Positions 4,172-23,450 of a stretch of 41,345 nt of DNA are shown here, in pieces. Source of the DNA: Terriglobia bacterium (GTDB lineage Bacteria > Acidobacteriota > Terriglobia > JAIQFV01). Position numbers and translations under genes: made by a program. The stretch covers positions 1-41,345 of the forward strand of contig JAIQFV010000031.1 of assembly GCA_020073085.1 (NCBI GenBank), read 5' to 3'. The notes beneath the pieces were generated by a model, which worked only from the letters and a program-made list of their open reading frames with translations, was not told the origin of the DNA and made no database searches. Numbering within the stretch: position 1 is the first letter of the stretch; every line of letters starts with the position of its first letter.

Positions 4172-4822
4172 TCAGGAAGTTTCGTGTCCTGCGATCTTAC
4201 CGAGCTGAGTACTGCTATAAACGAGAATTGCTACGGTGATCAAGAGAGCACACGCTCCAACAACTATGGCGAGGTCTACCACTGGAAATGGCAAGGACTC
4301 GGATCCTCGCAGAACCATTTCATAGGGTCCAATAAGAAATAGGCGGGAAAGCCACAAGGCGTTGGGCCTTTCTCTGCAGAGGTGGTCTACGAATGGGTAG
4401 ACCAAATACGAAAGAGCAAGCACTACTCCTGTATTCCCCCACGAACGCAGAACGGTCGAGAAAAAAACCAGGAGGCACGCTGAATACGCGAAGCAAAGGG
4501 TCAATCCGATCAAGGCCCCCAGAGCGCCCCGCAGGGTTGGAACATGGTGAGTGAGGACGAGATATATCCCCACGAATAACTGAATGCAAATCGCCACCCC
4601 AAGACAGAAACCAGCCGCTCCCACGGCACGCCCTACAATAAAGCTTGCGCGGGAGATCCCCAGGGAATGCACGATCAACGCCCGGCCCGATTCCACCTCT
4701 GAGGCGACAATCCCGGAGCATACCAATAAAGGAAGAAAGAGCAGCAGAAGTGGTACGTGGGGGGTCCCGTAGAAATCACTCCAGCTCGCCATCCCGCCTC
4801 GAGCTGAGAGGGCGATCGCCAC
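4172..4822 (-). CDS. ABC-2-type permease, N-terminus lost or frameshifted
   Basis: The 216-aa frame has about six hydrophobic helices. The signature SEVESGRALIVHSLGISRASFIVGRAVG matches the re-entrant and coupling region of ABC-2 transporter permeases, which export drugs or polysaccharides or assist copper-enzyme maturation. The only in-frame start is GTG 4822, which falls inside what reads as the first helix (WIIPVLLCVAIAL). A TGA lies 13 codons upstream, and the neighbouring frame reads RICLAVNPRVTPNT, which would make a plausible amino end. A small frameshift near 4845-4855 is therefore likely. No ATPase gene is adjacent, so this is probably a decaying orphan. Confidence 0.6.
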   Translation of the reverse strand: MAIALSARGGMASWSDFYGTPHVPLLLLFLPLLVCSGIVASEVESGRALIVHSLGISRASFIVGRAVGAAGFCLGVAICIQLFVGIYLVLTHHVPTLRGALGALIGLTLCFAYSACLLVFFSTVLRSWGNTGVVLALSYLVYPFVDHLCRERPNALWLSRLFLIGPYEMVLRGSESLPFPVVDLAIVVGACALLITVAILVYSSTQLGKIAGHETS

Positions 4823-5042
4823 ACAGAGCAGGACCGGAATGATCCAACTGCGTGTTTGGTGTCACTCGTGGGTTCACTGCAAGGCATATTCGCAACAGTC
4901 ATTCGGGTTAGGCACCTACATTTTCCTTTTGACACAACTTTGGGATGTATGACGCCGGCTTTTCTACGGTCGGCTTGACATCATTCTTCTGAAGAGGTAT
5001 ACGAACGATGTGGCTTGAATCTCCGTAAAGGGAGGGTCACAC

Positions 5043-5240
5043 ATGAGAAAGAAGATCCGCAAGTCAAACGTCGAAACTTCTGAAGATAAAGCCCTCAGTG
5101 AGGCAATCCGCAGAGTTTACCAAAAGTACGGAACGAATTTGAGCGCGTTTGTTCGTGACGTTCATGATGAGCTAACAATGAAGCGCCAAGACATTCCTGA
5201 GCAAACCGAAGAGATACGAGCGTGGCGTTGCCGAAAGTAA
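5043..5240 (+). CDS. Small charged protein upstream of ClpP-like protease
   Basis: A 65-aa basic and acidic helical protein that I do not recognise. The middle (ALSEAIRRVYQKYGTNLSAFVRDVHDEL) could form two amphipathic helices. ATG 5043 follows GGGAGG at proper spacing. The stop is 10 bp before the TTG start of the next gene, and the stop codon runs into that gene's AGGAG ribosome site, so the two are very likely cotranscribed and coupled. It is a candidate partner, adaptor or inhibitor for the protease. Confidence 0.7.
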   Translation: MRKKIRKSNVETSEDKALSEAIRRVYQKYGTNLSAFVRDVHDELTMKRQDIPEQTEEIRAWRCRK

Positions 5241-5250
5241 GGAGAAGGAT

Positions 5251-6459
5251 TTGATCGTTCCAATGGACATTTTTAGGCCCAATCCTTCCAGGGCAGTTTA
5301 CGTTCAAGGCGTCATCGATGAGAAGCTCGTTTACCGCCTTACTCCACGGATCGTTTTTCTCCAGAGCCAAAATCGGTCTCCGATCACCGTCTATATCGAT
5401 AGCGTTGGGGGAAACATCTCCCACATGGAAAGCTTATGGAGGTTGCTTACTGCTTCGAATCAAGATTTTGCTCTACCTTGTCGTATCATCACCGTTGTTA
5501 CATCTAGGGCGGCAAGCGCTGCGGCTGACCTGCTCTCGTCGGGAGACTACGCTATAGCTCTACCTCAAAGTACGATTCTTTATCACGGCTCTAGAACATT
5601 TCGGGAAATGCCAATGACGGTCGAAACGACATCGATGCTGGCCCAACTCCTGCGAATGACCAATGAGACATACGCAATGGAACTCGTTCGCAAGATCGAA
5701 AGCCGATTCATGTTTCGTTTCATGCTGTCGAAGGACCGGTTCGATGATATCCGAAAAAAGAATCCTCGGAAACAAATGACGGATACAGAATGCTTCCTCG
5801 CCGTCATATCGGATAGCCTTTCCGCTCGGGCCAAGAAGCTCTTTGAAACCGCCCGCGAGCGCCACGGAAGATATGATGCGCTTCTGAAAGCGGCCAAGCG
5901 TAAGAAGGCATACAAGGAAGTGGCAAAAACTGAAGCTGCCCGAATAAAAGCAATCGTAGACTTTGAGGTAACGAATAACAAAGGTGACAAGGACTGGACC
6001 TTTCAGGGTGGGGGCCTGACGCGGCTGACCGATGACTTTTTCCTCCTCAATGAACACCTAGCAAGTTCCCAAAGCGACCGGCTGAACGCGTTATGCTCTC
6101 AGTGGGGATGGTTCTCGCTAAGCAAAGATGAACAAGCAGAAGTAAGTCAGTCCCCAGACGCAGATAGAACGAAACTTCTAATCAATAAAGTTCGGCCACT
6201 ATTGGAGCCACTATGGGCATTTTTTGTGGCACTCTGTCATGCCTTGCAGGAAGGAGATAACGAACTTACGGCGACAGATGCCTTCTGGCTTGGACTCATT
6301 GACGAAGTGATGGGTGATAGTGGATTGCCATGCTTTCGGCTCATAGCTGAGTACCGAGCAGACCCCCCGAAGCCCGAGATTGCAAGGGGCAATGAAGAGT
6401 CGAAAACTATAAGTGAAAGACAAGTTACTGGTCAAACCAGCGACCAAGCAGGGAGGTAA
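5251..6459 (+). CDS. ClpP-like serine protease with large C-terminal extension
   Basis: A 402-aa protein. Residues ~15-150 follow the ClpP/crotonase fold: ITVYIDSVGGNIS matches the oxyanion strand, SRAASAAADLL places the nucleophile at S89, and ILYHGSR places the catalytic His at H112. A lysine- and arginine-rich insertion (~200-250) follows, then a C-terminal stretch ELTATDAFWLGLIDEV resembling the ClpP tail. It is about twice the length of ClpP, with no ATPase domain and no Clp ATPase nearby. TTG 5251 is preferred because AGGAG lies 6-7 bp upstream; ATG 5263 is an alternative. Its setting in a defence island suggests a protease effector, which is inference. Confidence 0.75.
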   Translation: MIVPMDIFRPNPSRAVYVQGVIDEKLVYRLTPRIVFLQSQNRSPITVYIDSVGGNISHMESLWRLLTASNQDFALPCRIITVVTSRAASAAADLLSSGDYAIALPQSTILYHGSRTFREMPMTVETTSMLAQLLRMTNETYAMELVRKIESRFMFRFMLSKDRFDDIRKKNPRKQMTDTECFLAVISDSLSARAKKLFETARERHGRYDALLKAAKRKKAYKEVAKTEAARIKAIVDFEVTNNKGDKDWTFQGGGLTRLTDDFFLLNEHLASSQSDRLNALCSQWGWFSLSKDEQAEVSQSPDADRTKLLINKVRPLLEPLWAFFVALCHALQEGDNELTATDAFWLGLIDEVMGDSGLPCFRLIAEYRADPPKPEIARGNEESKTISERQVTGQTSDQAGR

Positions 6460-6815
6460 TCAAGAAACCTTGAAGGTCAAAGGTGGTGGCGAAGATTGGC
6501 CAAAGAAATTGGTTACTAAGGAGAGGCGGAATGCTGCTGGCCGTAAGAAAGGGCACCACAATTCCGGCAGGTTGATACATAGTCCGGTGCATATAGCAGA
6601 TACTTCTACAAAATTTTTGAGTCCCTGTTTATTCAGCTTGAGGAGATAAGAACTTCCTGCGTCGATGCATGTAGGATGATTGTGGAGATTGGGTAACACA
6701 AGATGCTTTTTGCTTCTTTCATGCTGTTCAGCCTTACCCCCCCCCAAAAAATAGCTCGACACGGCAGAGAATTCAAGTTGCCTATCATGGAAAACACCAT
6801 AAGTCGGAAAATTGA

Positions 6816-6838
6816 TGTTGACTTTCAACTCAACATTC
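6816..6838 (+). promoter_or_regulatory. 23-bp operator candidate, copy 1
   Basis: Arms TGTTGA-N8-TCAACA form a 20-bp palindrome at 6816-6835, followed by TTC. The exact 23-bp sequence recurs inverted at 7948-7970. It covers the -35 and spacer of the XRE promoter, as expected for autorepression by the XRE protein. Confidence 0.6.
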
Positions 6839-6847
6839 AGATAGGAT
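6818..6847 (+). promoter_or_regulatory. Sigma-70-like promoter of the XRE-ImmA operon
   Basis: TTGACT (6818-6823) and TAGGAT (6842-6847) are separated by 18 bp. Transcription would start near 6854, the GTG of the XRE gene, implying a leaderless or nearly leaderless message. No ribosome binding site is seen, which fits. Confidence 0.45.
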
Positions 6848-6853
6848 AAAAGG

Positions 6854-7216
6854 GTGGTAGGCAAAATTACGCTTGGAAGTCGGATCAGGGCGCTGAGGCT
6901 CGATGCCAAACTCTCGCAGCGTGATCTGGCCGCTCGCCTCGCAAAACCGCTGAAAGGCTTCGATTTCACCTACCTCTCCAAGATCGAAAACGACCGGCTT
7001 GTGCCCTCAGCATCAGCGATCCTAGCCTTAGCGGCAGAACTAAGAGGCAATAGTGATGAGCTGCTAGCCCTCGCTGGCAAGGCTCCGGCGGATGTCGGCA
7101 ATATGCTCCAAAAAAGTGAAGGTGCTCGGATGTTTTTTCGATCTGCCCTGTCTAAAGGGCTTTCGGAGGAGGATTGGAAGAACCTGTTGCTAGACATTCA
7201 GAATAAAATGAGATGA
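6854..7216 (+). CDS. XRE-family helix-turn-helix regulator (CapH-like candidate)
   Basis: A 120-aa DNA-binding protein. Residues ~4-65 form the HTH: SRIRALRLDAKLSQRDLAAR, then FTYLSKIENDRLVPSASAI, where YLSKIEN is the recognition helix. The C-terminal ~50 residues (EGARMFFRSALSKGLSEEDW) are a likely dimerisation tail. The stop overlaps the ATG of the ImmA/IrrE-type peptidase gene (ATGAGATGA context). In known pairs of this type the peptidase cleaves the regulator on a stress signal, and in CBASS loci such pairs are called CapH/CapP. Here the pair lies upstream of a CBASS, so that role is plausible but inferred. Confidence 0.85.
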   Translation: MVGKITLGSRIRALRLDAKLSQRDLAARLAKPLKGFDFTYLSKIENDRLVPSASAILALAAELRGNSDELLALAGKAPADVGNMLQKSEGARMFFRSALSKGLSEEDWKNLLLDIQNKMR

Positions 7217-7935
7217 AATTCTATCGGAACGAACAGATCGAGCAAATCGCGGAGCAGCGTCTCCTGTCCTTTGAGCGGAAGCTGGAGCGACCGCTGTCGT
7301 TGCCCGTCGACGTGGAACTGTTCGGTGAACTCGTTTTGGAGCTTAGGATCCTCTGGGAGGACATCGATGAATTGGCAGGAGAGGAAATCCTCGCCGGACT
7401 ACGCGCCGCCGATCGGCTGATTGTGATGAATGAACGCCGCAAGCACGAAATGGAACAGAAACCGGGCCGTCGGCGGCTAACCCAGGGCCACGAGATGGGC
7501 CATTGGGATCTGTTTGTGGACAAATCAAAGCTGGATTGCCCCACGCTATTCGAGGCGACGGCTCCGGGCATATTTGCATATCGTTGTTCAACCAGTGGTC
7601 AGGTCCAGATCATGAAAACCTTGCTCTCTTGTGAGGGGGGCCGCGAGCACTTGCTTCAGATCAACTCCCGCTTAGATTGCCCGGATGAAGCGCGTTCCGT
7701 GAATCGCTACGCAGCCGCAATTCTGATGCCCCGCGCTGTCATCATCGACGAAGCCAAGAAGGTCGACCGAACGCAATGGCCGAACCTATACCGATTGGCC
7801 CAGCGGTTTGACGTCACAATTTCGGCGCTCCGGGTGCGATTGGAACAGTTTAATCTCTTGTACGTGGATCAAGAAACAAAAAGGCTTTACCCCTCGCTGG
7901 AGGATGCGAAGGGACAGGCCCGATTGCTCTTTTAA
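7213..7935 (+). CDS. ImmA/IrrE-family zinc metallopeptidase (CapP-like candidate)
   Basis: A 240-aa cytosolic protein with LTQGHEMGHWDLF, giving HExxH (H93, E94, H97), the zinc site of COG2856/ImmA/IrrE peptidases. A downstream SVNRYAAAILMPRAVI stretch is typical of the family (N-x-F/Y-A-x-x-L-L-M-P). A final helical part with TISALRVRLEQFNL is the usual C-terminal module. Translation is coupled to the XRE gene through a 4-bp overlap. It likely cleaves the XRE protein to induce the genes that protein represses. The alternative is an Xre-COG2856 toxin-antitoxin-like module unrelated to the neighbouring CBASS. Confidence 0.88.
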   Translation: MKFYRNEQIEQIAEQRLLSFERKLERPLSLPVDVELFGELVLELRILWEDIDELAGEEILAGLRAADRLIVMNERRKHEMEQKPGRRRLTQGHEMGHWDLFVDKSKLDCPTLFEATAPGIFAYRCSTSGQVQIMKTLLSCEGGREHLLQINSRLDCPDEARSVNRYAAAILMPRAVIIDEAKKVDRTQWPNLYRLAQRFDVTISALRVRLEQFNLLYVDQETKRLYPSLEDAKGQARLLF

Positions 7936-7947
7936 AAAATTTGACAG

Positions 7948-7970
7948 GAATGTTGAGTTGAAAGTCAACA
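7948..7970 (-). promoter_or_regulatory. 23-bp operator candidate, copy 2 (inverted)
   Basis: A perfect reverse complement of 6816-6838, located 12 bp after the peptidase stop and 134 bp before DUF3892. A TTGACA hexamer lies at 7941-7946 directly beside it, but no good -10 follows at 17 bp. It could let the XRE protein control downstream genes or serve in looping with copy 1. Confidence 0.6.
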
Positions 7971-8104
7971 GCAAATCACATCCAAGAGGGCGACAGCCAC
8001 CTGGACGAACCCGGTTCCAGGTGCATTCCGTCAAGGAACGCGGACGCCCTTGGAGGATAGACGGTTCTCGCAGCCAAAAAAACCCAAACAGAAAGGAAAT
8101 TCGA

Positions 8105-8410
8105 ATGAAGGAATTTGAGATTACGTGTATCAATAAACCAGACCGTTCCAACACCCATGAGCACATCACATACATCGGCAATCTCGCTGGCCTTTGGCGT
8201 ATCTCTCGGGATGCGGCGATTCTGAGGATCGAATCGAAGCAGGAAGCTTTTTATACAGTCGATCGCTCCACCGGAAACAAAGTCTATATCGGCGTCGTCA
8301 GAGGGGATGGCAATAAAGCCGCCTACCTCAGGACATACTCCGATGGCAAATGGAAGGATAATCTACTGGCTCTGGATGATTGTACTGGTGCTTGTCGGAT
8401 CATCGGTTAG
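8105..8410 (+). CDS. DUF3892 family protein
   Basis: A 101-aa protein with EITCINKPDRSNTHEHITYIG, a W-x-I-S/T stretch, an IESKQEAFYTVD segment and a terminal DNLLALDDC, matching the layout of DUF3892 proteins. The function of that family is unknown to me; members are small single-domain proteins. ATG 8105 is preceded by AAAGGAAA. It sits between the second operator copy and the CBASS genes, on the same strand, and may be part of the regulated set. A strong hairpin follows it. Confidence 0.8.
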   Translation: MKEFEITCINKPDRSNTHEHITYIGNLAGLWRISRDAAILRIESKQEAFYTVDRSTGNKVYIGVVRGDGNKAAYLRTYSDGKWKDNLLALDDCTGACRIIG

Positions 8411-8422
8411 GCACGCGGCGGA

Positions 8423-8453
8423 GGTGGGGTCAGGTTTCGGCGCTGACCTCACC
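8423..8453 (+). terminator. Strong hairpin after DUF3892, no T tract
   Basis: GGTGGGGTCAG pairs with CTGACCTCACC (one G-T wobble) across a 9-nt loop. It lies 13 bp after the DUF3892 stop. Without a T run it may be a terminator-like structure or a REP-type palindrome of the GGGTCAGG family. Confidence 0.4.
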
Positions 8454-8632
8454 AACCCACTTTGATTCTGAAAAAAACCAGACCAGCTACCTAATTTTGT
8501 GGCTTCTACCAACGATAGGCAGATGGCTGGGCTCAGTTTTGCAAATTGGAGATTTCTGGCTGTTCCCAATTATCCTGATCCCAGGCCTTATGAGCGACGA
8601 GATTTTAGTATAACCGCTACTGGAGATATACT

Positions 8633-9505
8633 ATGCCAAGAACAATTGATGAAGGATTCCGGGACTTCCTAACAAAATTGACCCCAACCACTGTGGAGTC
8701 TGAGTCAGCCAAATTCCACCGCGCCTCCATTGAGGCTTGCTTGAAGAACAACTTTGGACTCAAGCGATTTGCCCGAATTGGATCATTTGGAAACGGCACG
8801 AGCATTTCGGGATACAGCGACGTTGATTATTTGGCCTGTCTGCCGACGGACCAACTCACTCTCCTATCTACCTCGTCTCTGACAAAAGTTCGAAACGCCC
8901 TTGAGGCTCGGTTTCCCGATACGGGGGTTACGGTAAATTGCCCTGCTGTTGCCGTCCCTTTTGGCTGGAGGAAAGCAGAGAGCACTGAAATTGTCCCCGC
9001 CGATCATGTCAACGAATGCAATGGCTTCAAAGTTTATGATATCGCAGACTGTGCGTCTGGGTGGATGAACGCCAGTCCAGATGCCCACAATGCTTATGTG
9101 AGATCGCTCGATGATAAGCTCGGTGGGAAAGTCAAGCCCCTCGTACGTTTTATCAAGGCTTGGAAGTATTACCGAAATGTTCCGATTTCTTCGTTTTATC
9201 TTGAGCTGCGCGTCGCAAAGTACGCGAGTAGTGAATCAGCAATAGTGTACGACATTGACGTTCAAAGAGTGCTTCGGCTTCTGTGGGATAATCAGCTCGC
9301 TGATATGCGGGATCCGATGGGCATTTCTGGCTATATTTCAGCCTGCAAATCCGACGCGTTACGCGAGGATGCTCTGTCGAAGCTGGAGACAGCGGTTACA
9401 CGAGCGGAGAAAGCCCGACAAGCGACGGGAATTGAGAACATTTCGATCGGATTTGATTGGTGGCGGCTTGTCTATGATAACGAATTTCCAACTTACTACT
9501 ACTGA
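8633..9505 (+). CDS. CBASS CD-NTase (SMODS-type cyclic oligonucleotide synthase)
   Basis: A 290-aa nucleotidyltransferase of the DNA polymerase beta superfamily. The active-site helix and strand read GSFGNGTSISGYSDVDYL (G50-S51, D63 and D65). A third acidic residue is likely E119 in TEIVPADH. The C-terminal helical part (KVKPLVRFIKAWKYY, SSFYLELRVAKY) is typical of the SMODS/OAS-like core. On phage infection such enzymes make a cyclic di- or trinucleotide that activates the adjacent effector. ATG 8633 has GGAG 8 bp upstream. The stop abuts the ATG of the S-4TM gene, so the two are coupled. The nucleotide product cannot be told from sequence by eye. Confidence 0.93.
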   Translation: MPRTIDEGFRDFLTKLTPTTVESESAKFHRASIEACLKNNFGLKRFARIGSFGNGTSISGYSDVDYLACLPTDQLTLLSTSSLTKVRNALEARFPDTGVTVNCPAVAVPFGWRKAESTEIVPADHVNECNGFKVYDIADCASGWMNASPDAHNAYVRSLDDKLGGKVKPLVRFIKAWKYYRNVPISSFYLELRVAKYASSESAIVYDIDVQRVLRLLWDNQLADMRDPMGISGYISACKSDALREDALSKLETAVTRAEKARQATGIENISIGFDWWRLVYDNEFPTYYY

Positions 9506-10408
9506 ATGAGCACGATTCTTATTGAACAGAACACCGAAAGACAACTGCAGCGATTGGGCGCCCAACGCCAACTCTACGGAACTGCAAAGAAAGTATTCAT
9601 CGCACAGTTGATTCTCGGCGGCCCCGTCGCGGTTGTAACAGCATTGCTTGTTGGGATATTCCCTAAGCTTAGAGGTTACACAGCGTTGTGGGGTATACTA
9701 GTGGTGCTCTCGGATATTGTGTGGTTCACCCCGTGGCAAAAACGCCTTCGAGATGCGGCGGCGCGAGTTCAAGAATCATTTGATTGCGATGTCTTATCGC
9801 TGCCTTGGAACTGTTTAAAGGCAGGCAATCGTCCGGATCCAGAACTAGTCAAGGAACGAAGTGAGAAGTACAAAAAATGGGCCGCAAAGCTGCCTCCTTT
9901 GACCAACTGGTATTCTTCGGCTATCGGGGATCTTCCATTACACATTGGTCGGCTAGCATGTCAGAGGTCGAATTGCTGGTGGGACTCAAAGCAGCGCAGG
10001 CGTTACGCGACGTGGGTGATTGCGATAGTTGTCACAGTCTTTACCCTGATGATTTGCCTCGCCATGGGGAATAAAATTACACTTGAAGATTTTATGTTGA
10101 AGGTCATTGCCCCACTTGGTCCGGCATTAATACTTGGGGTGCGCCAATTTACAGAACAGATGGAAGCGGCGGCGCGCTTGGATAACCTAAAGGAACATTC
10201 CGAGCAGATGTGGAATGACGCGCTGAGTGGAAAACCTGAAGCTGAAGTCACTGCGGGATCTCGCGGGCTCCAAGATGAAATTTGTGAAAACCGAAAGAAA
10301 AGTCCGCTCGTTTTTGACATAATCTATAAGCGGCTTCAGCGTGACTACGAAATGCAAATGAATTACGGAGTTGCCGAGTTGGTTGCGCAGGCAAAAAAGA
10401 ATCTTTAA
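9506..10408 (+). CDS. S-4TM family CBASS effector
   Basis: A 300-aa protein with four transmembrane helices: two near residues 28-48 and 54-74, two near 168-190 and 200-216. A cytosolic domain lies between the pairs (about 75-165), containing SFDCDVLSLPWN, a family hallmark. This matches the SMODS-associated 4TM effector, presumed to disrupt the inner membrane when it senses the CD-NTase product and thereby stop infection by cell death. The gene starts immediately after the CD-NTase stop with no separate ribosome site, so translation is coupled. No Cap2/Cap3 ancillary genes are present, so this is a minimal type I-like CBASS. Confidence 0.9.
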   Translation: MSTILIEQNTERQLQRLGAQRQLYGTAKKVFIAQLILGGPVAVVTALLVGIFPKLRGYTALWGILVVLSDIVWFTPWQKRLRDAAARVQESFDCDVLSLPWNCLKAGNRPDPELVKERSEKYKKWAAKLPPLTNWYSSAIGDLPLHIGRLACQRSNCWWDSKQRRRYATWVIAIVVTVFTLMICLAMGNKITLEDFMLKVIAPLGPALILGVRQFTEQMEAAARLDNLKEHSEQMWNDALSGKPEAEVTAGSRGLQDEICENRKKSPLVFDIIYKRLQRDYEMQMNYGVAELVAQAKKNL

Positions 10409-10476
10409 GTATATCGATCTGCCAGCTCACAGCAACTTCGGTGCATTAATCTGCTCCCCGGAGGACGCATGCGTTC

Positions 10477-10579
10477 GGGTCAGGCACCGACACTCAACAG
10501 TTCAAGAACTTCTTGCCCAAGAAGAAAGCCAAGTTCTTTTGTCTTTTCATCGCAAATGTCGAATGTGGGTGCCTGACCC
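10477..10579. repeat. GGGTCAGGCACC/GGTGCCTGACCC palindromic element
   Basis: GGGTCAGGCACC (10477-10488) and its exact inverse (10568-10579) delimit a 103-bp element in the 311-bp spacer 10409-10719. A smaller hairpin, ATTGGC/GCCAAT, follows at 10593-10609. No gene is supported in this spacer. Confidence 0.6.
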
Positions 10580-10719
10580 ATCGCTGTTCGTTATTGGCCA
10601 GTAGCCAATATATAGTGATAAGCAGGCAGGTCCAAATTGTGAATTCTGATCGTTCTAGACGTGGAAAATTGAAAATTTAGATCCGACCCTAAAAACCTAA
10701 TTATTAAACAAACCATTCA

Positions 10720-12474
10720 ATGAGCGTACTCACCCCAATGTCTGTAAATTCCAATTTACGCCTTTCTGGCAGGGCTCGCAAATCCACTGGTTCACATTAC
10801 ACCCCCTCGATCCTGTCTGATTTTGTTGCGCATCAGATTGTGGATGCTTGGGCGTCAAAGAAAAGTGCTCCTGAGGTCTGCATCCTTGATCCCGCAGTAG
10901 GCGACGGCGAGCTTCTTCATTCAATTATGCGGGAAGCATCAAACCAGATGGACTCGAAACTTCACATCTTTGGTTTTGAGACCAATGAGGCTGCCCTGAA
11001 TGCCGCTAAAGCGCGTATAAGGAAGTGTTTTCCCAAGGCCAGAATGTCCATGATGTGTGAAAGTTTTTTGGATTTTGTTTTGGAATCCTACGGTCTCACA
11101 AGACAGAACACTTTGTTTGAAAGAATGTCCGTAAACAAATTCGATTTGGTGATTGCTAATCCGCCATATGTTAGGACGCAAGTGATGGGTGCCAAGCGGG
11201 CGAGTGAACTGTCTCGGCGATTTAATCTCTCTGGGCGCGTTGACCTGTACTACGCATTCATACAAGGTATAGCAGCTACCTTGCGACCAGGCGGAATTGC
11301 TGGAATCATAGTATCGAATCGGTTTATGACTACGAAGTCAGGCGCGAGCATACGCGCTAGCATAAGAGAAGAGTTTGATATTTTACATGTATGGGATATG
11401 GGGGACACAAAGCTCTTCGAGGCTGCTGTCCTCCCGGCGGTCCTCCTCTTAAGAAAGAAAGATAAAACCGGAAATTCAGCAGTTTCTCTTTTTACCACGA
11501 TATATACGACGCGTTCAGAGGGGGAATCTCTGCATTGTGAATCGGTGATAGACGCGATTAATTGTGCCGGAATAGTCGATGTGAAAGGCGGCAAACGCTT
11601 CCTGGTTCAACACGGCAGTTTAGATTGTGGGTCGGGCGCGACTGGAGTATGGCGTATTGCGACTCCAAATTCCGACGCGTGGCTCGAACAGGTCGATCGC
11701 CATACATTTTGTACGTTTGGATATCTAGGTAAGGTCCGCGTAGGAGTGAAGACTTGCGCAGATAAAGTGTTTATTGGGTCCCACTGGGATCAACTTCCGG
11801 AAAACCGGAGACCGGAGCTTTTGCGACCACTGGCAACACACCACGTGGCTAGGCGGTTCAGAGCAATAGTGCCCGAGTTGCAGCAGCGCATTTTATATAC
11901 ACATGAGGTTGTCGGGGGTAAAAGAGTTGCGGTGGATCTCAAAAAGTATCCACGTACCGCGCAGTTTTTGAGACGATTTCGGGCCGAACTAGAAGCGCGA
12001 AAATATGTTCTGGATGCGGGGAGAAATTGGTACGAGATATGGGTACCTCAAGATCCGAATGCATGGACTTCTCCTAAGTTGGTTTTTCCAGACATTTCAG
12101 AAAGACCGACGTTTTGGATGGATCTCACCGGTTCCGTAGTAAACGGTGACTGCTATTGGCTGATGTGTGAAAATGTCGGACAGACTGAATTGCTCTGGCT
12201 TGCTCTGGCAGTGGCCAATTCTTCATTCATCGAAACTTACTATGATCACCGCTTTAATAATAAACTATATGCTGGTCGTAGACGATTCATTACACAGTAT
12301 GTCCAGGAGTTCCCTCTTCCATCCTGTGAGACCGATATCGGGAAGGAACTCATCGAAATTGCGAAAAGAATATATGAGTTGACACCATCGCGCGAGGCCT
12401 CGAGATTGGAGAGGCGACTGAACGATCTCGTGTGGTTCTCGTTTGGTTTCTCACTGAAAGAAACCAGTCGGTAG
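10720..12474 (+). CDS. Type II N6-adenine DNA methyltransferase (TaqI/Eco57I-like)
   Basis: A 584-aa modification enzyme. GSHYTPSILSDF near residue 25 and DPAVGDGELLHS (~54-65) form the SAM-binding motifs. IANPPYVRTQ (~146-155) is the catalytic NPPY of adenine-N6 methylases. The C-terminal part (LVFPDISERPTFWMD, GDCYWL, ANSSFIETYY, FITQYVQEFPLP) is the TaqI-like target recognition domain. It protects host DNA from the convergent endonuclease; the site is unknown. The reading frames overlap by 24 bp at their 3' ends. ATG 10720 has no ribosome site; ATG 10738 is an alternative. Confidence 0.92.
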   Translation: MSVLTPMSVNSNLRLSGRARKSTGSHYTPSILSDFVAHQIVDAWASKKSAPEVCILDPAVGDGELLHSIMREASNQMDSKLHIFGFETNEAALNAAKARIRKCFPKARMSMMCESFLDFVLESYGLTRQNTLFERMSVNKFDLVIANPPYVRTQVMGAKRASELSRRFNLSGRVDLYYAFIQGIAATLRPGGIAGIIVSNRFMTTKSGASIRASIREEFDILHVWDMGDTKLFEAAVLPAVLLLRKKDKTGNSAVSLFTTIYTTRSEGESLHCESVIDAINCAGIVDVKGGKRFLVQHGSLDCGSGATGVWRIATPNSDAWLEQVDRHTFCTFGYLGKVRVGVKTCADKVFIGSHWDQLPENRRPELLRPLATHHVARRFRAIVPELQQRILYTHEVVGGKRVAVDLKKYPRTAQFLRRFRAELEARKYVLDAGRNWYEIWVPQDPNAWTSPKLVFPDISERPTFWMDLTGSVVNGDCYWLMCENVGQTELLWLALAVANSSFIETYYDHRFNNKLYAGRRRFITQYVQEFPLPSCETDIGKELIEIAKRIYELTPSREASRLERRLNDLVWFSFGFSLKETSR

Positions 12475-13500
12475 CGGTATCTGAAGCTTTCTGTTCAATA
12501 CCATCCCTTCGAACCGGGTGAAGCGCGTAAAGAAAGCCTCTCCTGTAGTTAGATAAAAATGAGTCAGTGTAATAAAATTGCTCCTCGTGCTGGCATAAAA
12601 CAAAGCGTATCGGACGTCGCAGTGACGTATTTGCATCCCTCGAATGTTTGGAACGTCAAGAAGATCTCTACTATTGGGTAGCACGAGGCCCAGATCAATG
12701 GTGGGAGATGTTTGCAGTTTCACCTCCAAAAGCTGGTTACGAATGTCTGGGAAGCTGCCGTCATCTGCGTAGTGCAAATATCCGAGCTTCATGCATACGA
12801 GCCGGTGAAGTTGTCCCCCACGGTTTCGTTCTTGATCTGATCCAATATCAGAAAACCCTTGCCCGATTAGCTGGGAAAGCCGCTCATAGACCACACCGAT
12901 CGGAAGCAAGTCACTTGCGCTGGGGTGGTCAGTCGGACTCGGTTGGAAGACCGTGGGTGGGTTATGTGTGAGCAGACACGCCAGAAGGTTTTCTGTGTCC
13001 TGTTGAGTGACAAGTTCAGCTGGCTCCGAACGAGTGGTAAGGCGTGCCTGGTACTTCTGCGTCAAAGTTCCAGTGGTGTCTAATTTTGCTAATGCGTTAC
13101 CGCTGACCACTTTCACTCGTTCTATCCGATCATTCCCGGACACACGGATGATCACATATCGCCGGCCAGGATCCAATTCCTCGTTCCAGACTTGCAGGTT
13201 GTTCGATTTCTGAATGTAAGTGTCGAAGAGTTGGCCGAGAAATCGTGGATGGCTCTTTTTGAAAGAGGACGGTATGGGATAACCAAGGATTCGACATATC
13301 TTTTCCTTAACAACCTTTGATCGAGTTCTTAGCGGCAAACCGAAAAGAGGAGTGTTTCGCAACCCCTCGTTAAGGAGAACCTCCAATTCAGGAGACGGTA
13401 TCCAAAGGTCTGAACCCACCTCGATCTTGTCATAAATGGAAAGACCGCTTTTGCTGATTGCAGTAACAAAGCGCTTGGCAAGTTGGGAGTCACCGCTCAT
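12451..13500 (-). CDS. Type II restriction endonuclease, PD-(D/E)xK fold
   Basis: A 349-aa protein with FPDIRNQLLEVKLQTS, giving the PD-x6-E-x-K nuclease core (~residues 256-266). Placement between a controller gene and an adenine methylase identifies it as the restriction partner; I do not recognise its subfamily. ATG 13500 is preceded by GAGGTGA at good spacing. It is 7 bp downstream of the controller gene on the same strand, so the two are cotranscribed, the usual C-R order that delays the nuclease until methylation is complete. Its 3' end overlaps the methylase gene tail to tail. Confidence 0.85.
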   Translation of the reverse strand: MSGDSQLAKRFVTAISKSGLSIYDKIEVGSDLWIPSPELEVLLNEGLRNTPLFGLPLRTRSKVVKEKICRILGYPIPSSFKKSHPRFLGQLFDTYIQKSNNLQVWNEELDPGRRYVIIRVSGNDRIERVKVVSGNALAKLDTTGTLTQKYQARLTTRSEPAELVTQQDTENLLACLLTHNPPTVFQPSPTDHPSASDLLPIGVVYERLSQLIGQGFSDIGSDQERNRGGQLHRLVCMKLGYLHYADDGSFPDIRNQLLEVKLQTSPTIDLGLVLPNSRDLLDVPNIRGMQIRHCDVRYALFYASTRSNFITLTHFYLTTGEAFFTRFTRFEGMVLNRKLQIPLPTGFFQ

Positions 13501-13507
13501 TCCGGGC

Positions 13508-13735
13508 TCACCTCTTCGTCAAGAGATTGGGGACCGAGGTTCGTAGAGCGGTCGCAAGGTCAACCAAGGTACGCAATGTCACGTTGCGTTCTGAGCGTTC
13601 GACTGAGCCAATGTACGTTCTGTGCAGACCACATTTGCTAGCGAATTCTTCTTGCGAAAGATTCTTCTTACGACGGAATGCGCGCAAGTTCTCGGCGAGA
13701 ATATTTCGTAGTTCGAGGTCAAGGTTGTTATTCAT
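13508..13735 (-). CDS. Controller (C) protein of restriction-modification, XRE family
   Basis: A 75-aa one-domain HTH protein: RRKKNLSQEEFASKCGLHRTYIGSVERSERNVTLRTL. The GLHRTYIGSVERGERN-type recognition helix is characteristic of R-M controller proteins. As a dimer it would activate its own and the endonuclease promoter, with later repression. It is 7 bp upstream of the endonuclease gene. No ribosome site precedes its ATG, which is common for leaderless C genes. Confidence 0.9.
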   Translation of the reverse strand: MNNNLDLELRNILAENLRAFRRKKNLSQEEFASKCGLHRTYIGSVERSERNVTLRTLVDLATALRTSVPNLLTKR

Positions 13736-13802
13736 GGTCAGTCATGAGGTTTGGATTGAGGTGCTGATCGTCGTGGGTATAATTACAGCTGTGATGTCTC
13801 TG

Positions 13803-13820
13803 AGTCTACAGACTAGAAGT
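13803..13820 (-). promoter_or_regulatory. Candidate C-box upstream of the controller gene
   Basis: AGTCT-AC-AGACT (13803-13814) is a perfect palindrome overlapping ACT-AGA-AGT (13812-13820). C-boxes are typically built from ACT/AGT half-sites. It lies 68 bp upstream of the C gene start. Confidence 0.35.
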
Positions 13821-13877
13821 AGCATAAACACGAGGCCTATGGATTGAGCACAAATATAGTGTCCGGAGAGCTAAACC

Positions 13878-14957
13878 ATGAGAAAAAGGATCCTCCTGCT
13901 TTTTTTATTACTTCTTCACTGTTCGGCTGGGGTTGCAGCCAACCATCCCACACCCGTTCAGGGCGACTTCACGATCAAGAATTACGAGTTTGAGAGTGCG
14001 GAGACCCTGCCGTTGTTGAAGCTGCATTACCGGACGCTGGGCACTCCGGTCCGCGATGAAAAAGGAATAATCCGCAATGCGGTGCTGATCCTGCATGGAA
14101 CCGGCGGGGCGGGGACACAGTTCTTGACCGACACGTTTGCCGGCGTGCTGTTCGGGCCGGGACAACTGCTCGATGCCACCAAGTATTTCATCATCCTGCC
14201 CGACAACGTCGGCCACGGGCAGTCGACGAAGCCCAGCGATGGAATGCACGCGCGCTTTCCTCATTACGGCTACCACGACATGGTGGTCCTCCAGCACCGG
14301 CTCCTGACCGAAGGCCTGGGGGTAAACCATCTCCGCCTGGTGATGGGCACCTCGATGGGCGGGATGCACGCGTGGATGTGGGGGGAGATGTACCCGGACT
14401 TCATGGACGCGCTGATGCCGCTCGCCAGCCTGCCTGTCCAGATCGCGGGCCGCAATCGCATGACCCGCCGCATGGTCCTCGATTCCATCCGAAACGATCC
14501 CGAATGGAAAAACGGGGAATACAAGACCCAACCACGCGGCTTGACGAGCGCCATTTACACGATGATCTTTATGACCAGCACTCCGCTGTACTGGCAGAAC
14601 CAGGCGCCTACCCTTCCGGAGGCTGACAAGATGTTTGACGACCTGGTGAAGCTGCGTCTTTCCCGTACCGACGCCAACGATATGCTGTACCAGTTCGACG
14701 CGTCACGCGACTATGATCCGTCGCCACAGCTCGAAGCGATCAAAGCGCCGCTCCTCGCCATCAACTCCGCCGACGATCAGGTGAATCCGCCGGAGCTGGG
14801 CATTGCCGAACAGCAAATCAAGCGCGTGAAACGGGGGCGGTTCGTTTTGATTCCGATCAGCGATAGGACTCGGGGACACGGGACTCACTCGCTGCCAGAA
14901 GTTTGGAAGGATCATCTTGAGGCGCTATTAAGAGAATCCGGCAAGAGGGGCGAGTGA
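13878..14957 (+). CDS. Secreted alpha/beta-hydrolase, MetX (homoserine acetyltransferase)-like
   Basis: A 359-aa protein with a clear signal peptide (MRKRILLLFLLLLHCSAGVAA). The hydrolase core shows HGTGG (oxyanion loop, ~73-77), GTSMGG with nucleophile S159, an Asp in NSADDQVNPPE and a His in TRGHGTHSLP. LPDNVGHGQSTKPSDG is typical of the MetX-like branch. Because it is exported, acyltransfer to homoserine is unlikely and an esterase or other hydrolase role is inferred. ATG 13878 has GGAGAG 8 bp upstream. Its last ~12 codons are duplicated 300 bp downstream. Confidence 0.88.
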   Translation: MRKRILLLFLLLLHCSAGVAANHPTPVQGDFTIKNYEFESAETLPLLKLHYRTLGTPVRDEKGIIRNAVLILHGTGGAGTQFLTDTFAGVLFGPGQLLDATKYFIILPDNVGHGQSTKPSDGMHARFPHYGYHDMVVLQHRLLTEGLGVNHLRLVMGTSMGGMHAWMWGEMYPDFMDALMPLASLPVQIAGRNRMTRRMVLDSIRNDPEWKNGEYKTQPRGLTSAIYTMIFMTSTPLYWQNQAPTLPEADKMFDDLVKLRLSRTDANDMLYQFDASRDYDPSPQLEAIKAPLLAINSADDQVNPPELGIAEQQIKRVKRGRFVLIPISDRTRGHGTHSLPEVWKDHLEALLRESGKRGE

Positions 14958-15215
14958 GAAAATCCAAATTCCAAAGTCCAAAGTCCAAAGTCCAAAGTCC
15001 AAAGTCCAAATAAAATCCAAAGTCCAAAGTCCAAAGTCCAAATAAAATCCAAATTCCAAAGTCCAAAGTCCAAATAAAATCCACCATCCAAGTGAAACCC
15101 AAATTCCAATCCACGGCGGCGGACAAATTCCAAATGGAACCCAAAGTCCAAAAGCCAAAATCCTCGGCGGCGGACGAATTCCAAATAAAACCCAAAGTCC
15201 AAAAGCCAAAAGGCA
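14958..15215. repeat. Heptanucleotide (AAAGTCC)n tract with a 51-bp double unit
   Basis: Starting right after the hydrolase stop, units of AAAGTCC and variants (AAATTCC, AAATAAAATCC) are repeated some 20 times. Nested inside, a 51-bp unit beginning CGGCGGCGGAC occurs at 15114 and again at 15165. The whole spacer to 15376 contains no supported gene; open frames across it are products of the heptad periodicity. Confidence 0.85.
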
Positions 15216-16458: not shown

Positions 16459-18129
16459 TCAGATGCAGGGCGGTGGTGTGCTCGGGAGGGCTTCATCCAG
16501 GTCGCCTTTGTCAGAGAGGACCAACCCGCAAATATTGTGCGCACTCGCGTACGCCGGTTTTAGACGAATGGCTTCACGGCACTCGGCCAGTGCCCCCTCA
16601 AGATCTCCCTTCACGCGGAGTCCGTTGGCGACTGCCGTGTGGGCTTCGGCAGAATCGGGGTTCAGCCGCAACGCCTTGCGATATTCTTCCATCGCCTCGT
16701 CCAACTCCCCCTTTTGGTCGAAGACGACGCCGATGTTTCGTTGGGCCTCGGCGAATTGGGGATTCAGGCGCAGTGCTTCACGAAACTCGGCCATGGCCCC
16801 GTCCCAGTCCTCTTTTTCGAAGAGGGCATCACCCAGGCCGTTGTGCGCCTCCGCATTGTCCTTATCCAACCGGAGTGCCGCCCGATACTCGGCGATGGCG
16901 CCCTCCACATCGCGTTTCTTGAAGAGTGCGACACCCTGTTCACAGCGTGTTCGGCTCTCTTCCTTTTCAGGAGCCAGGCGTACGGCTTCCGCTTTTTGGG
17001 TCTCCAATCGTCTTGGTTCAGCCGCCGGGGGTGCTTTCCTCTCCGCTTCCTCCTGCGTTTTCCGTTCGGGGCGAGTTGTGATCTCTTCTTTCGGCTGGGC
17101 AGGTGGGGCCACGGCACCCGGGGAACTCTGGAGGATCATTTCCTCGGGGGCGGCGGGCGCCGGGTTTGCGGCAAGGCATTTCTCGGCGGCGTCTGAGACC
17201 CTGCGGCTGTCATCCGCGGTGAGGGTCTTGAGCGCCGTGCGAGCTGCAAGGGCGAGCCCGCGGTGTCTGCCGCGGAGCAGACGTTCCAGTTCGTGGATGG
17301 CCTCTTCGCGGATACTGGGAAACTTGCTGCCGATGGCATCGCGAATGTCCTGGGGCAGATCCGAGGGATTCACGAAAGGGGCGGGATTGCGGGCGATGAT
17401 GATTTCGCCCTCCACGTCCAACTCCCACTTCATGGGTCTTTGGTGAGGCGTCACATCCAGGACACGGTCATGTACAAAGTCGTAAAGCTCGTCGAGGGAG
17501 ACGACGCCGTCGCCATCCTGATCGGCCTCTCCTGACCGAAGCCCCTCCACCAGCGTTTGAGTAAAGACCGAACCCGAGCTCTCGACCGCCGATTCGAAGA
17601 TGCCGGATTCGAAGGAATACTGGACGGCGTCGGAGGCGGTCAGCAGCACCCGCCCTCGTCCCTCGAAATGATCCTTCAGAACCACGTTGGCCTCGCCTTT
17701 GGCCAACAGGGCTTTTGCAAACGCCCCGCTGTAGCAGCAGTCCAGCAGCAGCACTTGTCGTTTGGACCGGCTTCCGGCCATGACCTCGTTGACGAAATGG
17801 TCGGGGATGGCGGTGGAGCGCAGCCACTGCGGATCGGTATTGAGGGCTGCCAGATAGAGTTTCCCATCCTCGTCCTTCAACCCATGACCGGAGAAATAGA
17901 GCGGCAAGAGGTCGTCGCGGGTGCGGGAGCGATAGAATTTCTCGATTTCATGCATGACCTCGGCGCAGCGCTGATTGACAAGCGTCCGGACTTCAAATCC
18001 CCCGATCGTGGGGTCCGCCAGGACGTCGGCCAGGGCCTGTGCATCCTGGGTGGGCGCGGTCAGTTGTCGCAGGCCAGTGTGCTCGTACTGCGAATTGGCG
18101 ATGATCAGGGCGCTTTTGACCCCGCTCAC
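16459..18129 (-). CDS. Caspase-like (C14) protease with TPRs, frameshifted 3' end
   Basis: A 556-aa frame. Residues ~4-230 form a caspase/metacaspase domain, with the catalytic His in YFSGHG (H82) and Cys in LLLDCCYSGAF (C132). DQDGDGVVSLDEL (~203-215) is an EF-hand-like loop. A Pro/Lys/Glu-rich linker (~330-400) leads to TPRs from about 395. The last repeat breaks at DEALPSTPPPCI and stops. GTG 18129 overlaps the EACC1 stop (GTGA), so the genes are coupled. In EACC1-caspase conflict systems the protease is the effector and the TPRs the sensor or scaffold. A single missing base near 16483 separates it from the rest of its TPR array. Confidence 0.85.
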   Translation of the reverse strand: MSGVKSALIIANSQYEHTGLRQLTAPTQDAQALADVLADPTIGGFEVRTLVNQRCAEVMHEIEKFYRSRTRDDLLPLYFSGHGLKDEDGKLYLAALNTDPQWLRSTAIPDHFVNEVMAGSRSKRQVLLLDCCYSGAFAKALLAKGEANVVLKDHFEGRGRVLLTASDAVQYSFESGIFESAVESSGSVFTQTLVEGLRSGEADQDGDGVVSLDELYDFVHDRVLDVTPHQRPMKWELDVEGEIIIARNPAPFVNPSDLPQDIRDAIGSKFPSIREEAIHELERLLRGRHRGLALAARTALKTLTADDSRRVSDAAEKCLAANPAPAAPEEMILQSSPGAVAPPAQPKEEITTRPERKTQEEAERKAPPAAEPRRLETQKAEAVRLAPEKEESRTRCEQGVALFKKRDVEGAIAEYRAALRLDKDNAEAHNGLGDALFEKEDWDGAMAEFREALRLNPQFAEAQRNIGVVFDQKGELDEAMEEYRKALRLNPDSAEAHTAVANGLRVKGDLEGALAECREAIRLKPAYASAHNICGLVLSDKGDLDEALPSTPPPCI

Positions 18130-20164: not shown

Positions 20165-20993
20165 TCGCAGGCATCAAAGGGCGATGCCTGCGGCACCCCG
20201 GTGTAGTGACGAATTCATTCGTTCTGGCACGCAGGCATCAAAGGGCGATGCCTGCGGCACCCGGCGTAGTGACGAATTTATTCGTTCTGATACGCAGGCA
20301 TCAAAGGGCGATGCCTGCGGCACCCGGTGTAGTAACGAATTTATTCATTCTGAAACGCAGGCATCAAAGGGCGATGCCTGCAGCACCCGGTGTAGTGACG
20401 AATTTATTCATTCTGATACGCAGGCATCAAAGGGCGATGCCTGCAGCACCCGGTGTAGTGACGAATTTATTCATTCTGATACGCAGGCATCAAAGGGCGA
20501 TGCCTGCCGCACCCGACGTAGTAACGAATTTATTCGTTCTGATACACAGGCATCAAAGAGCGATGCCTGCGGCACCCGGTGTAGTAACGAATTTATTCAT
20601 TCTGATACGCAGGCATCAAAGGGCGATGCCTGCGGTACCCGGTGTAGTAACGAATTCATTCGTTCTGATACGCAGGCATGCAAAGAACGTATGCCTGCGG
20701 CACCCGGTGTAGTAACGAATTTATTCGTTCTGATACACAGGCATCAAAGGGCGATGCCTGCGGCACCCGGTGTAGTGACGAATTCATTCGTTCTGATACG
20801 CAGGCATGCAAAGAACGCATGCCTGCGGCACCCGGTGTAGTGACGAATTTATTCGTTCTGGCACGCAGGCATGCAAAGAACGCATGCCTGTGGCACCCCG
20901 GTGTAGGGACGAATTTATTCGTTCTGGCACGCAGGCATGCAAAGAACGCATGCCCGCGGCACCCGAGGTAGTGACGAATTTATTCGTTCTCGG
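20165..20993. repeat. Tandem array 1: about 13 copies of a 63-66 bp double-palindrome unit
   Basis: Each unit carries two hairpins: GCAGGCAT-N9-ATGCCTGC (or the 10-bp arms GCAGGCATGC-N7-GCATGCCTGC) and ACGAA-N4-TTCGT, joined by GGCACCCGGTGTAGT. Copies at the left use the 9-nt spacer CAAAGGGCG, those at the right mostly GCAAAGAACGC. The period is a multiple of three and lacks stops, so long frames run across it on both strands. The region has no ribosome site and I treat it as non-coding. Confidence 0.9.
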
Positions 20994-22966: not shown

Positions 22967-23450
22967 GTAGTAACGAATTCATTCGTTCTGATACGCAGGC
23001 ATGCAAAAAGCACATGCCTGCGGCACCCGAAGTCGTAACGAATTCATTCGTTCTGGCACGCAGGCATGCCAAGAACGCATGCCCGCGGCACCCCGATGTC
23101 GTAACGAATTCATTCGTTCTGATACGCAGGCATGCAAAGAGCGCATGCCCGCGGCACCCCGATGTCGTAACGAATTCATTCGTTCTGGCACGCAGGCATG
23201 CAAAGAGCACATGCCTGAGGCACCCGAAGTCGTAACAAATTCATTCGTTCTGGCACGCAGGCATGCAAAGAGCACATGCCTGAGGCACCCGAAGTCGTAA
23301 CGAATTTATTCGTTCTGATACGCAGGCATGCAAAGAACGCATGCCCGCGGCACCCGAAGTAGTAACGAATTTATTCGTTCTGATACGCAGGCATGCAAAG
23401 AGCGCATGCCGGCGGCACCCGAAGTAGTAACGAATTTATTCGTCCTCAAA
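22967..23450. repeat. Tandem array 2: about 8 copies of the same double-palindrome unit
   Basis: The same unit and orientation as array 1: ACGAATTCATTCGTTCTG, then GCAGGCATGC-N7-GCATGCC(T/C)GC. The linker differs (GAAGTCGTA or GATGTCGTA instead of GGTGTAGT), so the arrays have diverged separately. The right end runs directly into the VOC gene. Confidence 0.9.

Follow-up and report, generated by a model that had tools for sequence, protein, structure and literature searches.

In the window analysed here, a stretch of 41,345 nt from a Terriglobia bacterium, two genes encoding an XRE-family protein and an ImmA-type peptidase are bracketed by two inverted copies of one 23-mer. This raises the question whether the repeats are operators of a regulator or the ends of a mobile cassette, and which genes they serve.

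The inverted sites and the gene pair between them

The first copy, site 1 (op1), is located at positions 6816-6838 of the plus strand and has the sequence TGTTGACTTTCAACTCAACATTC. The second, site 2 (op2), lies 1.1 kb away at 7948-7970 on the minus strand. An earlier note on this DNA had described them as perfect inverted copies, each a TGTTGA-N8-TCAACA palindrome, and this was confirmed: the 23-mers are exact reverse complements, and the palindromes span 6816-6835 and 7951-7970. The inverted arms reach 27 nt at 96% complementarity (6812-6838 and 7948-7974). A narrower palindrome, GTTGA-N3-TCAAC, is also present inside each copy, resulting in three half-sites per site.

The earlier note had seen no third copy in the window, and this can be extended to the whole 5.79-Mb genome, in which none was found even when up to three mismatches were allowed and in which the exact palindrome is present at the two sites only. 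By our own arithmetic, chance alone would give approximately 1e-5 inverted 23-bp pairs of this kind per 41 kb and 0.35 exact palindromes of 12 bases across the genome. A non-chance origin is backed also by the relatives, in which the pair occupies the same two positions (see below). The genome-wide search had been proposed with many copies lacking XRE genes as the outcome that would speak against a specific operator, and such copies did not occur. A genome-wide regulon was considered and rejected. The genome contains no more exact sites, and the excess of one-mismatch near-matches (16 against 3 for a reversed-pattern control) is almost equal in G408, a genome of the same genus in which ImmA has no match (17 against 7).

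Between the two repeats there are xre and immA and nothing else. The XRE-family protein (6854-7216, plus strand; 120 aa; Pfam HTH_31, 9.4e-9) resembles CapH, ImmR and DdrO. Its best PADLOC model is capH (7e-8), in line with an HTH of the CapH family, and a hit of its family profile to PDB 7T5U (4.8e-5) covers the HTH domain. The second gene (7213-7935, plus strand) encodes an ImmA/IrrE-type metallopeptidase of 240 aa, which is assigned to the CapP family by its best PADLOC model (capP, 7.7e-12) and by a Pfam M78 match above the cut-off (1.7e-5). It carries HEMGH at residues 93-97, and HExxH is invariant in the six sequences compared. The sequence match to the solved CapP structure 7T5T reaches only E 0.75. 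The AlphaFold model of ImmA is too poor (mean pLDDT 53) for its fold to be compared meaningfully with that of CapP, and its best Z score of 3.7 was obtained with unrelated chains, CapP not being among the matches. Judged by these families, the two genes probably code for a repressor and a protease by which it is destroyed.

Conserved positions in relatives and the predicted xre promoter

The XRE-ImmA pair is accompanied by both sites, in the same places, in 5/5 relatives: L010 from Bryobacterales (genome G748; ImmA identity to the window 74%), L006 (53%), L012 (58%), L013 (55%) and the metagenomic viral contig L030 (53%). Together with the window this gives six loci, which are not independent trials because the relatives share ancestry, L012 and L013 being close to each other. 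In all six, site 1 ends 17-20 nt ahead of the XRE start, and site 2 starts 16-31 nt past the ImmA stop. The earlier observation that one copy follows the peptidase gene thus holds; in the window the 23-mer begins 13 nt and its 20-bp core 16 nt past the stop codon. The pattern with fixed spacing was found at 11 of the 12 sites (shuffle p 0.0003-0.003). Site 1 of L030 fails this test only because it is an otherwise perfect palindrome, TGTTGACTT-T-AAGTCAACA, whose spacer is shorter by one base. Where the sites are asymmetric, site 2 is always the mirror image of site 1, and in several relatives the two differ from each other within one genome. The distance between them, 1135-1169 bp, follows gene length. 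At a sixth related locus, L011 (seemingly one and the same as L014), immA is disrupted and site 1 is kept, and a search for site 2 there found none.

The sites are nearly exclusive to this module. In G185, as in the genome of the window, the exact core is confined to the module; it has one extra match in G748 and is absent from G408. Searches of plasmids and phages for close relatives of ImmA or XRE revealed nothing near.

The earlier note had also placed one copy over the XRE promoter. In support of this, a promoter is predicted at 6818-6847 (plus strand), with TTGACT (6818-6823) inside op1, a spacer of 18 nt and TAGGAT (6842-6847). It is the sole sigma-70-like site in 6700-8700, where 1.7 are expected by chance, and is thus weak alone. 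The same geometry recurs in all six loci: TTGA(C/A)T in site 1 is followed 17-18 nt on by a -10 hexamer that shares 4-6 of its 6 positions with TATAAT, and 6-9 nt separate this hexamer from the start codon. In the window, the GTG start of xre lies 7 nt beyond TAGGAT. Since the start codon is so near to the -10 hexamer, the xre mRNA is probably leaderless. As far as sequence can tell, the layout of site 1 is what the operator of an autorepressor should look like.

Which protein would bind there? That it is another regulator and not the neighbouring XRE seems quite improbable, since the sites accompany this xre-immA pair from genome to genome and hardly occur elsewhere, and since the half-site recurs with a Nostoc xre whose recognition helix is near-identical. 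This Nostoc xre belongs to a plasmid-borne xre-immA pair, in which the helix reads YLSKLEN as compared to YLSKIEN in the window. Two GTTGACT...AGTCAAC sites are located between this xre and a short-pAgo operon (L041, 3389-3455), and one of them again provides the -35 box for xre, TATAAT following 18 nt downstream. These sites are, in their own right, candidates for protease-controlled regulation of a pAgo system. On a Cupriavidus plasmid, the XRE has a different recognition helix, and the repeated palindrome of the intergenic region is a different one as well, ATGACGAATTCGTCAT (L040, 4840-5012). There, xre-immA is divergent from genes for a DUF3892 protein, a multiubiquitin (ubiquitin-like) protein and ThiF. 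Thus, two phyla show a link between xre-immA pairs and DUF3892, which is also encoded behind site 2 in the window. With divergent genes, the repeated sites lie together in a single intergenic region.

The surrounding defence island and the boundaries of the insertion

The repeats could alternatively be terminal inverted repeats of a mobile xre-immA cassette, as the earlier note had proposed. Exact inverted copies do bound the two genes, the outer neighbours differ between relatives, and DNA similarity to L010 begins about 7 nt left of site 1. However, this homology runs past site 2 through the DUF3892 gene. No transposase is present inside, and no target duplication was seen. The two sites diverge within one genome in relatives, and they occupy conserved promoter and 3'-flank positions, site 1 being a promoter element in every copy.

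A comparison with a relative lacking the cassette, which had been suggested as a check, points in the same direction. The match between G408 and the window breaks off at 4862 and resumes at 13945, the block of approximately 9 kb in between (4863-13944) having no counterpart. The two flanks are on different G408 contigs, the right one ending about 0.5 kb past the match, so that the empty site was not read through. Since G408 lacks the whole block, the visible ends of the insertion are at about 4862 and 13945 and not at the repeats (6816 and 7970). With neither a transposase nor a boundary at the repeats, we rejected the proposal of mobile-cassette ends, which we regard as very unlikely indeed. 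The other proposal of the earlier note, a pair of operators, is supported by the conserved positions of both sites, by their near-exclusivity to the module and by the placement of site 1 at the -35 box. Based on these sequence comparisons, we consider the repeats very probable operators of the neighbouring XRE protein.

The missing block is a defence island with genes for a ClpP-like protease, the xre-immA-DUF3892 module, a CBASS system and a type II restriction-modification system. The protease gene at its left end (5251-6459) encodes a 402-aa protein with a ClpP fold (Pfam CLP_protease, 2.2e-12) and no PADLOC match. No recombinase was recognised in the island by Pfam or in the translations. 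Outside the island, the ABC permease at 4172-4822 is without about 30 N-terminal residues present in G408, where it adjoins an ATPase gene that we did not see in the window. Several repeats were found as well. Positions 1-139 recur many times in G408, and the repeats at 14958-15211 (AAAGTCC units at 14959-15083) resemble dozens of stretches in G408 and G401. Tandem arrays of 63-65 bp are located at 20166-20990 (12.9 copies) and 22970-23443 (7.3 copies), and their units have GACGAATTTATTCGTTCTGATA-like text in common. By eye, the translation of 16459-18129 resembles a caspase-like peptidase followed by TPR repeats.

Site 2, the genes behind it and known repressor-protease systems

At site 2, we looked for sigma-70 promoter geometry in both directions in the six loci and found nothing conserved, only isolated 4/6 hexamers in single loci. 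Across the set, nothing recognisable as a sigma-70 promoter lies over site 2, which may act on a promoter of an unrecognised kind, stop read-through or be the anchor of a loop.

In the window, site 2 is followed by a leader (7971-8104, plus strand) with the ribosome-binding site AGAAAGGAAA. The leader is partly foldable, but modestly so (z -1.0 as a whole, -2.4 for 7972-8066). This fold is not conserved in L010, and Rfam has no match to a known RNA in the leader. The gene behind it (8105-8410, plus strand) encodes a small protein of 101 aa with a DUF3892 domain (Pfam PF13031, 1.9e-15), whose structural model is too poor to be used (pLDDT 57) and which is probably controlled through op2. DUF3892 is also found behind the same module in L010 (73% identity). 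The next gene differs in the other relatives: it is a 55-codon ORF followed by DUF2188 in L006, in L012 and L013 a gene for a protein of about 390 aa with no Pfam family, and in L030 a GIY-YIG gene, with the gene for the protein of about 390 aa in second place. The wider surroundings also vary. L010 has BREX-like genes (by eye) and an SbcC/D-like pair nearby, while L006 lies among methylase, Vsr-like and plasmid-type genes (by eye) on a plasmid-like or ICE-like contig.

A hairpin without a U tract (8423-8453, plus strand) follows the DUF3892 stop, and a similar one is found at the same place in L010 (-24.8 and -21.5 kcal/mol, respectively; shuffle z -1.5 and -1.3, which is weak). Further downstream are genes for a CBASS nucleotide cyclase (8633-9505, plus strand; Pfam SMODS, 1.5e-11; PADLOC Cyclase, 1.6e-120) and a CBASS 4TM effector (9506-10408, plus strand; Pfam S_4TM, 1.9e-91; PADLOC 4TM, 2e-101), and then for a type II methyltransferase and a restriction enzyme. 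The CBASS genes are separated from the XRE-ImmA pair by DUF3892 and the hairpin, and in relatives the pair has no CBASS linkage. With a hairpin behind DUF3892 not just in the window but also in L010, it is doubtful that control by site 2 extends directly to the CBASS genes. Therefore we name DUF3892, and not CBASS, as the likely target. In Acidobacteria, DUF3892 was found at 17 places in 16/396 genomes, the window's included. Within about 1.5 kb of the other 16 places no site with fewer than two mismatches was found, and two of them adjoin another ImmA-like peptidase.

Taking the sequences together with the analogies discussed below, we consider it likely that the repeats are operators for the adjacent XRE, that cleavage by ImmA frees both and that site 2 controls the next gene. 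XRE dimers would bind the GTTGA half-sites. At site 1, XRE would cover the -35 box of the xre-immA promoter, leading to autorepression, and at site 2 it would put the next transcription unit, here DUF3892, under the same control. A signal, probably ssDNA or other phage or DNA damage as for CapP and PprI/IrrE, would activate ImmA, which in turn would cleave XRE and release sites 1 and 2. The inverted orientation could then reflect a slightly asymmetric operator of three half-sites set in mirror image.

Several known systems offer parallels. PprI/DdrO and CapP/CapH work via ssDNA-triggered cleavage (PMC10904395). As in CapH and CapP, as far as CapH is portrayed in papers citing it, an XRE repressor is followed here by an ImmA-type peptidase, capH and capP are the best PADLOC models, and CBASS genes lie downstream; unlike there, DUF3892 and the hairpin precede CBASS, and the close relatives are not next to CBASS. 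DdrO is likewise an XRE repressor with palindromic operators that is cleaved by an M78 peptidase, IrrE (PprI), a cleavage we infer for the present pair; however, the DdrO regulon comprises about 20 genes, whereas there are two sites in the genome here. The ICEBs1-type pair ImmR/ImmA also consists of repressor and peptidase, with ImmR sites proximal to each of two promoters (PMC4207663), and L012, L013 and L030 have a recombinase of their own, in that each adjoins a divergent large serine recombinase. The ImmR sites lie between divergent genes, while the sites described here bracket a two-gene cassette in tandem. Last, CapS binds its own promoter and the promoter of the downstream immune operon, with one site each, as determined by ChIP-Seq (PMC13373217). 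This resembles the arrangement predicted here from sequence, but CapK and CapS are unrelated proteins (a kinase and a STAS-wHTH protein) and use phosphorylation instead of proteolysis.

Alternatively, in a variant of the operator explanation, site 2 could have no promoter of its own, and XRE bound there would either loop to XRE at site 1 and thereby reinforce autorepression, or obstruct polymerase on its way from the xre promoter into the downstream gene. This is in agreement with the lack of a conserved promoter over site 2 and with the inverted arrangement and spacing of about 1.14 kb in 6/6 loci, and there is precedent among XRE-type regulators, as Rco of pLS20 forms a loop between two operators and the same has been suggested for ImmR (PMC4207663). 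On the other hand, the spacing tracks gene length and not helical phase, and the next gene has, in the window and in relatives, its own ribosome-binding site 35-140 nt downstream of site 2, which fits a separate transcript starting from site 2 equally well. We regard looping, which the earlier note had raised, or blocking as possible, yet somewhat unlikely. It is tempting to take the idea a step further and to see in xre-immA and its flanking sites a portable control cartridge, with site 2 as roadblock or loop anchor and not as promoter operator. This is a tentative and on balance doubtful suggestion. If true, any gene behind site 2 would come under protease-controlled repression, which would explain why the downstream genes vary while the module and the positions of its sites are fixed.

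The silencing of defence and mobile-element genes up to the moment of need is under active study. In the conserved two-site layout described here, the second site points at the gene that is probably controlled, and it would make DUF3892, an uncharacterised family, a candidate that can be tested for a part in a response induced by damage or phage.
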